Assembly: GCA_020062745.1 (NCBI GenBank)
Contig: JAGUVT010000076.1
Span: 1-48,097 of the forward strand
Origin: Deltaproteobacteria bacterium
GTDB lineage: Bacteria > Bacillota > Desulfotomaculia > Desulfotomaculales > JAGUVT01
Length of the DNA stretch: 48,097 nucleotides
Direction of reading: 5' to 3'
Shown here: one piece after another, positions 2,659-12,503 of the stretch
How the letters are laid out: every line of letters begins with the position of its first letter
How positions within the stretch are numbered: the first letter of the stretch is position 1
Position numbers and translations under genes: made by a program
Notes under the pieces: model-generated
Told to the model about the DNA's origin: nothing
Database searches by the model: none
What the model saw: the letters and a program-made list of their open reading frames with translations, nothing else

Positions 2659-5544
2659 GATCACTTCGTCCGTGGCAATGCTTTCTGCCGCCGGCTGCCC
2701 GCCGAACATGCCCATGCCCTGGCGGGGGCTTTTAGCCAGCGCCTGCTGCAGGAACCGGCCGGTATAGGACTGCGGCGCCTCCGCCACTTCTTCCGGCGTG
2801 CCGGTGGCCACCACCCGGCCGCCTTTGTCCCCTCCTTCGGGGCCCAGGTCGATGATGTGGTCGGCGGTCTTGATCACGTCCAGGTTGTGTTCGATAACCG
2901 CCACCGTGTCCCCGGCCTCTACCAGCCGGTGCAGGACGCCCAGCAGCCGCTCGATGTCGGCGGTGTGCAGGCCGGTGGTGGGCTCGTCCAGAATGTAGAA
3001 GGTTTTGCCGTTGGATCGGCGGGACAGTTCGGTGGAAAGCTTCACCCGCTGGGCCTCGCCGCCGGAGAGGGTGGTGGCCGGCTGCCCCAGGCGGATGTAG
3101 CCCAGGCCCACGTCCTGCAGGGTTTTTAAGCGGCGTTGGATCTTCGGGATAGGCTTGAAGAATTCCAGCGCCTGGTCTACCGTCATGTCCAGCACGTCGG
3201 CGATGCTCTTCCCCTTGTATTTCACTTCCAGGGTCTCCCGGTTGTAGCGCCGGCTCTTGCAGACCTCGCACGGCACGTAGACATCGGGCAAAAAGTGCAT
3301 CTCGATCTTGATGATGCCATCACCCTGGCAGGCTTCACAGCGGCCGCCCTTGACGTTGAAGCTGAACCGCCCCGGCCGGTAGCCCCGCATCTTCGCCTCC
3401 GGCGTGCGGGCATAGAGATCGCGGATGTCGGTAAAAACGCCGGTATAAGTGGCCGGGTTGGAACGGGGGGTGCGGCCGATGGGAGACTGGTCGATATCGA
3501 TCACCTTGTCCAGGTGGCCGATTCCCCTGACTTCCCGGCACTGCCCCGGCTGCGTCCTGGCCCGGTGCAGTTCCTGGGCCAGCCGGCGGTATAAAATATC
3601 GTTCACCAGGGTGCTCTTGCCCGAACCGGAGACACCGGTGACGCAGATGAACAACCCCAGAGGAAATTCCACATCGATGTTCTGCAAATTATTTTCCTGC
3701 GCCCCCAGCACCGTCACTGTTTTCCCGTTGGACCGGCGGCGTAACAGCGGCGCCGGAATCTGTTTGCGCCCGCTCAAGTACTGGCCGGTGATGGAGGCCG
3801 GGTGGGCGGCGACCTCCGGCACCGTGCCGGCGGCTACCACCTGCCCGCCGTGCAGGCCGGCGCCCGGGCCGATGTCGATGATGTAGTCGGCGGCCCGCAT
3901 GGTTTCCTCGTCGTGCTCCACCACAATCAGGGTGTTCCCCAAATCCCGCAGACGTTGCAGGGTCTGCAGGAGCCGCCGGTTGTCCCGCTGGTGCAGGCCG
4001 ATGCTCGGTTCGTCCAGGATGTAAAGCACCCCCATCAGCCCCGACCCGATCTGGGTGGCCAGGCGGATGCGCTGGGCCTCACCGCCGGACAGGGTTCCCG
4101 CGGCCCGGTCCAGGGTAAGGTAATCCAGCCCCACATTGACCAGAAAGCCCAGCCGCTCGCCGATTTCCTTCAATATCTGGCGGGCAATCAGCCGCTCCCG
4201 CTCGGTCAGCTCCAGCTTCGCAAAGAACTCCCGCGCTTCCGCCACCGGCAGCCTGGTCACCTCCGTAATGGACAGGCCGCCCACTTTTACCGCCAGAGCC
4301 TCGGGCTTGAGCCTCTCCCCTTTGCAGGCCGGGCAGGGGCGGTTGCTCATAAACCGCTCGATCTCCTCCCGCTGGCGCTCCGAAGCGGTTTCCCTGTAGC
4401 GCCTGGCCAGGTTGTTGATTACCCCTTCAAAGGGGGCGTGCATCTCATGCCTGCGGCCGTAGAACTCGTTTTGCAGGACAAAGTGAAACCGCCTGCCGCC
4501 CGTGCCGTACAGGATCACGTCCAGGTGCTCCGGCGCCAGTTCGGCCACCGGGGTGTCCAGGCTGAAGCCGTAATAGCCGGCCAGTCCCTCTAAAAACTGG
4601 TAGGCATAGTTGCCCCTGCACCAGCCCTCGACGGCGCCGTCGTTAATGGATCTGGTGCGGTCGGGGATGACCAGTTCCGGGTCGATCTCCTGTTTCATCC
4701 CCAGACCGGTGCACTCCGGACAGGCGCCGAAGGGGCTGTTGAAGGAGAACAGGCGGGGGGATATTTCACTCAAGCCCACCCCGCACTCCGGGCAGGCGAA
4801 ATTCTCGCTGAAAATGATTTCCTCCCCGTCCGCTATGGAGGCTATAACCACGCCGCCTCCCGCTTTCAGGGCGGTTTCCAGGGAGTCGGCCAGCCGCTTC
4901 TCTACTCCCGGCCGGACTATAATCCGGTCCACCACCACTTCGATGGTGTGTTTCTTGTTCTTATCCAGCTTTATCTCCGCCGCCGCGTCCAGTACCTCGC
5001 CGTCCACCCGCACCCGCACAAAACCGTTCCGGCGCGCTTCCTCCAGCACCCGCGCGTGCTCCCCCTTCTTGCCGCGCACCAACTGAGCCAGCAGTTGGAG
5101 GCGGGTCCCCTCCGGCAAGGCGCACAGGTGATCCACCATCTGCTCCACCGCCTGCCGGGCGATGGGCCGTCCGCACAGGTGGCAGTGGGGGCGCCCGATC
5201 CGGGCGAAGAGCAAACGCAGGTAGTCATAAATTTCCGTCACCGTGCCCACGGTAGAGCGGGGGTTGTGGCTGGTGGCCTTCTGGTCGATGGAAATGGCCG
5301 GGGACAGCCCTTCAATGTAATCCACGTCCGGTTTGTCCATCTGCCCCAGAAACTGGCGGGCGTAAGACGAAAGGGACTCGACATAACGGCGCTGCCCTTC
5401 GGCGTAAATGGTGTCGAAAGCCAGGGAAGACTTGCCCGACCCGGACAGGCCGGTGATCACCACAAACCTGTCCCTCGGTATTTCCACATCTATGTTTTTC
5501 AAATTGTGCACCCGCGCGCCCTTTACCAGAACCCTGTCAAGCAT
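2644..5544 (-). CDS. uvrA: Excinuclease ABC subunit A
   Basis: UvrA (966 residues) is the damage-sensing ATPase of nucleotide excision repair. It dimerises, loads UvrB on lesions and leaves. Both ABC modules are intact. The first has Walker [10 protein letters not shown] near residue 32, zinc-binding CPEC pairs around 255-285 and the signature [14 protein letters not shown] followed by [15 protein letters not shown]. The second has [10 protein letters not shown], the CEACQGDG and CEVC zinc cysteines, and [15 protein letters not shown]. The ATG at 5542-5544 starts the usual [18 protein letters not shown]; an AGGAGG lies 15 bases upstream and an in-frame TTG at 5577 is less likely. Here uvrA is separated from uvrB by nearly 8 kb of accessory DNA, although the two often sit together in related bacteria. 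A small uvrA-like relic lies at about 11317-11455. Confidence 0.98.
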
Positions 5545-11316: not shown

Positions 11317-11455
11317 GGCGTAGAGATCGCGGGTGCCGGTGAAAACGCCGGTGCAAGTGGCCGGGTTGGAGCGGGGGAAGCGGCCGATGGAGGGGCTGGT
11401 CGATATCGATCACCTTATCCAGGTTGCCGATCCCCCTGATTTCCCGGCACTGCCC
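11317..11455 (-). pseudogene. Internal uvrA fragment, frameshifted
   Basis: This stretch of about 139 bases aligns by eye with uvrA 3412-3549 in the same orientation, with roughly 14 mismatches and one extra base (near 11390). On the minus strand it reads [20 protein letters not shown], the counterpart of [20 protein letters not shown] in the intact gene, and then loses frame at the inserted base. No flanking uvrA sequence is present on either side. It starts just after the SLH stop and ends about 11 bases before a 27-bp palindromic element. It is a dead fragment, either a partial duplication or debris from a second uvrA. Confidence 0.85.
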
Positions 11456-11466
11456 GAACAAACAAG

Positions 11467-11493
11467 CAAACAAGGGGACGGTTCTATTGTTTG
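11467..11493. repeat. 27-bp palindromic repeat, copy 1
   Basis: The element has arms CAAACAA and TTGTTTG around a GGGGACGGTTCTA core. It is identical, in the same orientation, to 12477-12503. It resembles short REP-like palindromes that I associate with REP-linked tyrosine transposases in clostridia, but no such transposase is in the window. It directly follows the uvrA relic. Confidence 0.8.
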
Positions 11494-11562
11494 TATTTTG
11501 AACATAATTATGCTACAATTATGCGCAAAAGGCGACCCGACTTTTACAGTTTTAAAAAGGTG

Positions 11563-11596
11563 AAAAGCCCGTAGTCGTTGAAACTATGGGCTTTTT
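11563..11596. terminator. Bidirectional intrinsic terminator upstream of tRNA-Thr
   Basis: A 12-base stem (AAAAGCCC-GTAG with CTAT-GGGCTTTT, one wobble) and a nine-base loop carry A and T runs on the two sides. It could stop transcripts from either direction before the tRNA gene. Confidence 0.7.
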
Positions 11597-11658
11597 CGCG
11601 GTTGGATCGTATATGAATTTTGTTATGCTACAGTGATATCTTCTTGTGAAAAGATAGC

Positions 11659-11733
11659 GCTGGTGTAGCTTAGCGGTAGAGCAGCGCACTCGTAATGCAC
11701 AGGCCGTGGGTTCAAGTCCCACCATCAGCTCCA
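11659..11733 (+). tRNA. tRNA-Thr (anticodon CGT)
   Basis: A 75-base cloverleaf with encoded CCA can be drawn. The acceptor is GCTGGTG with CATCAGC (one G-T pair). The D arm is around AGCGGTAGA, the anticodon loop is CTCGTAA with CGT at 11691-11693 (reads ACG threonine codons), and the T arm is GTGGG-TTCAAGT-CCCAC. The anticodon stem (GCGCA with TGCAC) has one C-A mismatch at its second pair, and the D stem has a G-T pair. It may thus be weakened, though otherwise complete. It lies alone between two terminators. Confidence 0.93.
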
Positions 11734-11742
11734 GTAAAGCCA

Positions 11743-11775
11743 GACCCCGCAAAGAATAGCGGGGTCGTTCTGTTT
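11743..11775 (+). terminator. Terminator after tRNA-Thr
   Basis: A perfect eight-base stem (GACCCCGC / GCGGGGTC) with an eight-base loop is followed by GTTCTGTTT, ten bases after the tRNA CCA. Confidence 0.8.
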
Positions 11776-11951
11776 AGTGCAAACTCCTTAAAAATTGCTT
11801 TTTGGGGATAGTTATGTTTGGTTTTTTTCCGTGGCGGATGGGGCTAGCGGCAGTGCCGCCGGGAAAGCAAAGGAAATTTTAAAAAAAACTTCTTGAATAA
11901 TTTCACGGAGAAAAAATAATCCTAGAAAAAAATAATAATCCTAGGAGGGGG
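11776..11951. other. AT-rich leader of the DUF3231 gene with a GC-rich hairpin
   Basis: This gap precedes the DUF3231 gene. A GCGGC-AGT-GCCGC hairpin lies at 11847-11859, with a competing TGGCGG segment just upstream, in otherwise AT-rich sequence. A partly duplicated AATAATCCTAG motif lies at about 11917-11944 and runs into the ribosome binding site. I could not match it to a known riboswitch. Confidence 0.3.
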
Positions 11952-12476
11952 ATGGGTTTGAAGATATTAGCAGGAATCCAAAAAATGGTCGATATCGGTA
12001 AATCTGACGAGGAATTACAGTCACAGATTACAGTTACTGAAGTATGGCATCTCTGGCAGACCCTTGTGCAAAAGTATGATATTATTGAGCTTACTCAGAT
12101 TCTACTGAACTATGCCGAAAATGCTGATCTTAGATTGGTATTAGAACGTGGGCTGGTTGCACTTGGAGAAGAGAAAGAAATAACGGAGAAGGAGTTAAAA
12201 AACTATGGAATTACGGCGCCGAAAGGACCGCCTGCCTTTGCGAAGACAGCTCTTGATGTTGAACCAATAACAGATTCGTTTATCTTTCGCCGCGTATTTT
12301 ATGGTATACAAGGGGTTTTGCCTATTCGTATGCAAGCATTTATAGACTCCACATCACCTAAATTGAGAGAAATCTTTAGAGAGCACATGATGAAAGAAAT
12401 TGAAATATATGATTTACTTATGGAGTATGGGAAATTTAAGGGATTTTTAGATGTGCCTCCTGCATTCCGCATCTAA
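11952..12476 (+). CDS. DUF3231-family protein (spore-coat/ferritin-like)
   Basis: The 174-residue, mostly helical protein resembles the second half of DUF3231 proteins, which are linked to the CotF-like spore coat group. Supporting blocks are VTEVWHLWQTLVQKYDI at the start and FRRVFYGIQGVLPIRMQAFI followed by REIFREHMMKEIEIYDLLMEYG near the end. Full DUF3231 proteins are often about twice as long with two four-helix units, so this looks like a single-unit form. AGGAGG lies only three bases before the ATG at 11952 but nine before a TTG at 11958, which may be the real start. The gene is visibly AT-richer than its neighbours and its stop codon abuts the second 27-bp palindrome, which suggests an acquired island. 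Confidence 0.7.
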   Translation: MGLKILAGIQKMVDIGKSDEELQSQITVTEVWHLWQTLVQKYDIIELTQILLNYAENADLRLVLERGLVALGEEKEITEKELKNYGITAPKGPPAFAKTALDVEPITDSFIFRRVFYGIQGVLPIRMQAFIDSTSPKLREIFREHMMKEIEIYDLLMEYGKFKGFLDVPPAFRI

Positions 12477-12503
12477 CAAACAAGGGGACGGTTCTATTGT
12501 TTG
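12477..12503. repeat. 27-bp palindromic repeat, copy 2
   Basis: It is identical to 11467-11493 and in the same orientation. It begins at the base right after the DUF3231 TAA stop, so the element may also act as that gene's 3' hairpin. Confidence 0.8.

Follow-up and report, generated by a model that had tools for sequence, protein, structure and literature searches.

Two identical REP-like hairpins on either side of tRNA-Thr and DUF3231 genes belong to a dispersed family whose loop is constant and whose stem changes

The window analyzed here is a stretch of 48,097 nucleotides (assembly GCA_020062745.1, contig JAGUVT010000076.1) from a bacterium of the Desulfotomaculales. In this window, the 27-bp palindrome CAAACAAGGGGACGGTTCTATTGTTTG occurs exactly at positions 11467-11493 and 12477-12503, on the + strand in both cases and thus in direct orientation, as the first-pass annotation had described. 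The features of the locus are the following:

11317..11455, - strand: uvrA fragment of 139 bp; its nucleotide identity to the complete gene, which lies at 2782-5532 (-) in this window, is 88%
11459..11466, + strand: 5' arm repeated in tandem (CAAACAAG), abutting copy 1 on its 5' side (from the sequence)
11467..11493, + strand: REP-like hairpin copy 1, made of arm CAAACAA, loop GGGGACGGTTCTA and arm TTGTTTG (from the sequence, copy search and folding)
11659..11733, + strand: tRNA-Thr(CGT), the only gene with a CGT anticodon in the genome; a probable bystander
11952..12476, + strand: gene for a DUF3231 protein of 174 aa (E 5e-12), single copy in the genome; a probable bystander
12477..12503, + strand: REP-like hairpin copy 2, identical to copy 1, in the gap between convergent genes

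The arms CAAACAA and TTGTTTG pair perfectly over 7 bp. Folded as single-stranded DNA, the 27-mer reached -3.9 kcal/mol (z -3.3), a value that was not equalled by any of 200 shuffles, and its minimum-energy fold contains an extra small inner stem, GGA/TCT, around CGGT. A third match was not found in the window, even when up to three mismatches were allowed, and none is expected in shuffled sequence. Both copies are intergenic and their flanks do not show any likeness outside the 27-mer. Copy 2 lies immediately 3' of the DUF3231 stop codon TAA (12474-12476). Copy 1 had been thought to abut a uvrA relic in the same manner; the relic is real, but the hairpin begins 11 bp past it, which is close and not flush. 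This fragment is located about 6 kb from the intact uvrA, after the genes for uvrB and the radical SAM protein. The segment of about 1 kb between the copies is indeed richer in AT than its surroundings, with a GC content of 0.406 (41%) compared to 0.538 before it, 0.589 after it and 54% for the whole window. A search against Rfam gave the tRNA as sole match and nothing for the palindromes, and neither copy is followed by a T run.

The loop core GGGGACGGTTCT was detected in 18 exact copies in the 2.69 Mb draft genome, against 0 for the reversed control; this is a low number for a REP family. The arms CAAACA/TGTTTG are carried by about 9 of the 18, including a third exact 27-mer at G000:C49 (L004), which was retrieved by the genome search that the first-pass annotation had proposed. 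Since this third identical 27-mer exists and about nine copies in all have these arms, the two palindromes of the window are members of a dispersed family and do not form a private pair. The remaining copies have mostly arms of the TGACA/TGTCA type, and some of them share about 70 nt more on the right. For the copies without the arms of the resident REP-associated tyrosine transposase (RAYT), mostly of this second type, no RAYT was found in the draft assembly. Both orientations are represented among the copies, many of which are joined in inverted doublets at 32-54 bp from each other, like REPINs. Arm repeats such as the one at 11459..11466 were also observed upstream of other hairpin copies.

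The genome contains a second direct pair of cores, at G000:C52:50226-51195 (L208, about 4227-5196). Its two members are 958 bp apart, have about 68 nt in common on the right, and bound a gene for a PIN-domain protein in a neighborhood of other toxin-antitoxin-like genes. By chance, 0.11 pairs of copies within 1010 bp would be expected and two such pairs are present in the genome, so that the spacing in the window is somewhat above chance expectation. As both copies are intergenic and the distance from gap to gap is about one gene (here one gene and one tRNA), a spacing of about 1 kb is nevertheless unremarkable.

The search for a RAYT, also proposed at first pass, revealed a single Y1 transposase gene in the genome (G000:C141). 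It encodes a protein of 256 aa that matches Pfam Y1_Tnp (1e-17) and the RAYT equivalog NCBIfam NF047646 with 80.8 bits, barely above the cut-off of 80. This gene is followed, 16 bp past its stop codon, by CAAACAGGAGAACCGTCCCTATGTTTG, a copy in inverted orientation that has the same arms; upstream of the gene, the contig extends for 145 bp and contains no core. With the loop repeated 18 times and a RAYT present, the description of the palindromes as REP-like is supported.

The association between RAYTs and flanking repeats was followed in relatives, that is, in genomes of the same order, for the long-form RAYTs of about 250-310 aa. Flanking inverted repeats (score of at least 26) accompanied 39 of the 49 long-form RAYTs, whereas the short IS200 transposases had none (0/25). 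In 19/49 of the former, GGGGAC or AGGGACGG was present on both sides, as judged by motif. Many of these repeats have the structure arm-GGGGACGGTTCT-arm', in which the arm is specific for the RAYT (GGAAGC, GCAAG, GAGTC, TGTCAA, ACACAA, etc.), and others carry GGGGTCAGGC or GGGGACAGG motifs. Further long RAYTs of the order (L071, L083, L085, L089, L093, L106, L109 and L110) are bordered by non-palindromic inverted repeats starting with GGGGTCAG, which are a sister type of end sequence.

Among 213 elements, 63% had arms paired at 6 or more of 7 positions, and this proportion fell to 6.5% when the 3' arm was taken from another genome. Furthermore, 57% of 51 elements shared six perfectly matching arm bases with the RAYT of their own genome, while the genome-permuted control gave 7.7% on average and at most 33% of 373; in this test, the RAYT arms were read by hand and the figures are uncorrected for the relatedness of the genomes. 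The core GGGGACGGTTCT was found in 31/40 relatives and in 134 of the 299 genomes sampled in the phylum, with up to 130 copies (reversed control, 0-3 per strand), and a lone match in a genome may be due to chance. In five genomes (L022, L028, L043, L044 and L290), GGGGACGGTTCT is followed by about 80 common nt (TTGAAGGGTTCAATTGGAAGTTTTGC...AAAAGGGCTCAA) while the left arms differ, and this is a longer repeat ending in the core. A scan of the named genomes for the 27-mer, with a pattern admitting a 5' arm ending in A or G and any base after the core, returned only two other contigs, from a Syntrophomonadaceae MAG and from Clostridiales DTU086. Inspected by eye, the ORF lists of these contigs did not contain any DUF3231-like protein.

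Two congeneric genomes, G119 and G243, could be compared site by site. One copy has an apparent empty site in which both arms are absent (L334 against L360), and at another site the two genomes carry unrelated REPs. In a shared doublet (L340 in G119, L373 in G243), the arms of the second half differ between the species, as if the stems had been exchanged at a common loop. In G119:C14 (L337:9970-10350), a RAYT gene from which a large internal part is deleted lies between inverted REPs, and the matching site in L367 (G243:C9) is devoid of it; this remnant is a miniature derivative of a REP-RAYT unit. These cases are single instances, in alignments of about 85-95% identity, and they show presence or absence and not direction.

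The extent of the mobile unit may be considered in the light of these data. One idea is that the 5' arm belongs to the target and that the element consists of the loop and the 3' arm only. Five copies of this genome, with about 70 nt common on the right and differing left arms, are consistent with it, but both arms are missing from the empty site just mentioned. A tandem duplication of the 5' arm was found in 21/213 copies, as opposed to 10 for the 3' arm, and this preference is suggestive only.

The two genes enclosed by the palindromes were also followed in other genomes. Inspection of all 42 tRNA matches of the genome showed that tRNA-Thr is represented by three anticodons, with one gene each. 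The tRNA-Thr(CGT) of the window was matched in 39/40 genomes, own genome counted, and all 29 inspected loci of relatives were tRNA-Thr(CGT). As the only tRNA-Thr(CGT) gene of the genome, conserved in the relatives, this tRNA is not dispensable cargo. None of these 29 loci had a recognizable DUF3231 gene within about 1.5 kb. DUF3231 itself is patchy (24/60 genomes) and the relatives' proteins are at most 47% identical; their loci lie neither beside a tRNA-Thr nor near this hairpin element. The 10 relatives in which the neighboring radical SAM gene was located have it in different gene orders, with uvrB, uvrA, tRNA-Thr and DUF3231 all missing from its side. Thus, the locus has undergone rearrangement in this lineage, a history to which the uvrA fragment also points.

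These observations bear on the proposal, made in the first-pass annotation, that the segment between the palindromes could be a mobile cassette. Two outcomes had been named there as contrary to it, namely absence of the element from the rest of the genome and conservation of the tRNA-DUF3231 pair in all relatives. Neither was encountered, as the genome contains further copies of the element and the pair is not conserved; the latter reflects a gene order specific to the lineage rather than a moving unit. A segment moving as a unit between direct REP copies, with tRNA-Thr and DUF3231 on board, would have in its favor the identical ends, the AT-rich content, the patchy distribution of DUF3231 and the second direct pair around the PIN-domain gene. 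However, the sole tRNA-Thr(CGT) of the genome could not be given away as dispensable cargo, the tRNA is never beside DUF3231 in the relatives, and their DUF3231 genes are not bounded by the hairpin element. Moreover, REP-bounded transposase units have inverted ends, whereas those observed here are direct. On these comparisons, in which all relatives are from other genera, the cassette is considered very improbable.

Had a single REP been duplicated locally or copied by gene conversion, two identical and close 27-mers would be accounted for, and the direct repeats could delete the segment by recombination without any transposition of it; stems do appear exchanged between the doublets of G119 and G243. 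But the flanks of the copies have nothing in common outside the 27-mer, the third identical copy is on another contig, and a deletion would cost the only tRNA-Thr(CGT), all of which makes this origin improbable. It is scarcely credible that the palindromes are RNA signals, either terminators or stabilizers of mRNA 3' ends, which are selected in place and are not the product of a mobile element. Copy 2, which immediately follows a stop codon and separates convergent genes, would fit such a function by its location, but the copies are not followed by T runs, the family includes both orientations and inverted doublets, and RAYT genes are bordered by members whose arms are specific for the RAYT. 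The palindromes may nonetheless have a secondary function as hairpins in RNA.

The palindromes are very probably two independent and solitary copies of a REP-type element, presumably spread by a RAYT, and the tRNA and DUF3231 genes are bystanders. The family is defined by a hairpin in which arms of 6-7 bp surround the constant core GGGGACGGTTCT, and it presumably spreads as single-stranded DNA through the action of the RAYT (HUH/Y1 transposase). Cleavage and movement of the hairpins by this enzyme are suggested by their association and by the known behavior of TnpA-REP (PMC8266576). The core may be what all these RAYTs recognize or cleave, with the stem as the address of each RAYT lineage. At the locus, two REPs would have inserted independently, flanking the genes by coincidence at a site whose gene order is not conserved in relatives.

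Beyond the locus, we tentatively propose a reversed code, which we consider somewhat more doubtful than probable. The 12-base loop GGGGACGGTTCT would be constant across many families of the phylum, and the exchangeable stem would be the address of the RAYT lineage, possibly acting as a long guide that pairs with the cleavage site; stems could then be swapped at the shared loop.

For the window, these results speak against the suspected mobile island, and tRNA-Thr and DUF3231 are most probably ordinary genes there. The transposases and their matching stems also form a natural series in which the choice of REPs by RAYTs can be studied. In well-studied REPs, the foot (GTAG) is kept and the hairpin varies, whereas the present hairpin family has an unchanging loop and a stem that differs from one transposase to another. 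This constant loop with a changing stem is unusual. No description of these repeats was found for this bacterial group; in openly accessible full texts the 12-mer matched only a single, unrelated fungal paper, and descriptions elsewhere are possible.

When compared to known systems, the family has the general traits of REPs, since a 27-bp intergenic palindrome is repeated in the genome, although in low copy number, and RAYTs are flanked by the same repeat, on the downstream side only for the resident RAYT and on both sides, by motif, for 19/49 of the relatives' long RAYTs. GTAG REPs and REPINs with their RAYTs are known from E. coli, Pseudomonas and Stenotrophomonas (PMC2817692, PMC8266576). 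The hairpins described here are likewise short dispersed palindromes that form inverted doublets, and RAYT genes are flanked by inverted copies matching the dispersed ones. In contrast to GTAG REPs, they have no GTAG at the hairpin foot, and it is the 12-nt loop that is constant while the stem varies with the RAYT. No unpaired GTAG or GTGG was present at the 5' foot of the window copies or of the other copies of this genome, which places them outside the GTAG superfamily.

In CGTC REPs (PMC3733652), the tag is an unpaired end, the loop measures 4-5 bp and there is no associated transposase. The reverse complement of the present core does contain CGTC, but as part of the loop and in a RAYT-linked family, so that the hairpins do not belong to the CGTC superfamily. 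The ends of IS200/IS605 elements (IS608) are also hairpins recognized by Y1 transposases, and a pairing of the arm with sequence 5' of the core would resemble the guide-to-cleavage-site pairing of the IS608 type. The difference is that no such repeats accompany the short IS200 transposases found in these genomes (0/25).

The closest resemblance is to the terminal inverted repeats (TIRs) flanking RAYTs, those of the "TIRtrons" or TIRYTs described by Di Nocera et al. (2013; PMC3733652), which share the GGGGWSAS motif; the text of that paper makes no mention of Firmicutes, Clostridia or Desulfotomaculum. There too, inverted repeats flank Y1 transposase genes, several TIRs share GGGGWS, and the repeats constitute small spreading families that may form dimers. 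GGGGACGG departs from the published GGGGWSAS at a single position, and within the order there are also RAYTs that carry GGGGACAG or GGGGTCAG. Unlike in the GGGGWSAS TIRs, the core GGGGACGGTTCT is located here in the loop of a short palindrome, and the trait that sets the hairpin family apart from them is the combination of a constant loop with an exchangeable stem.
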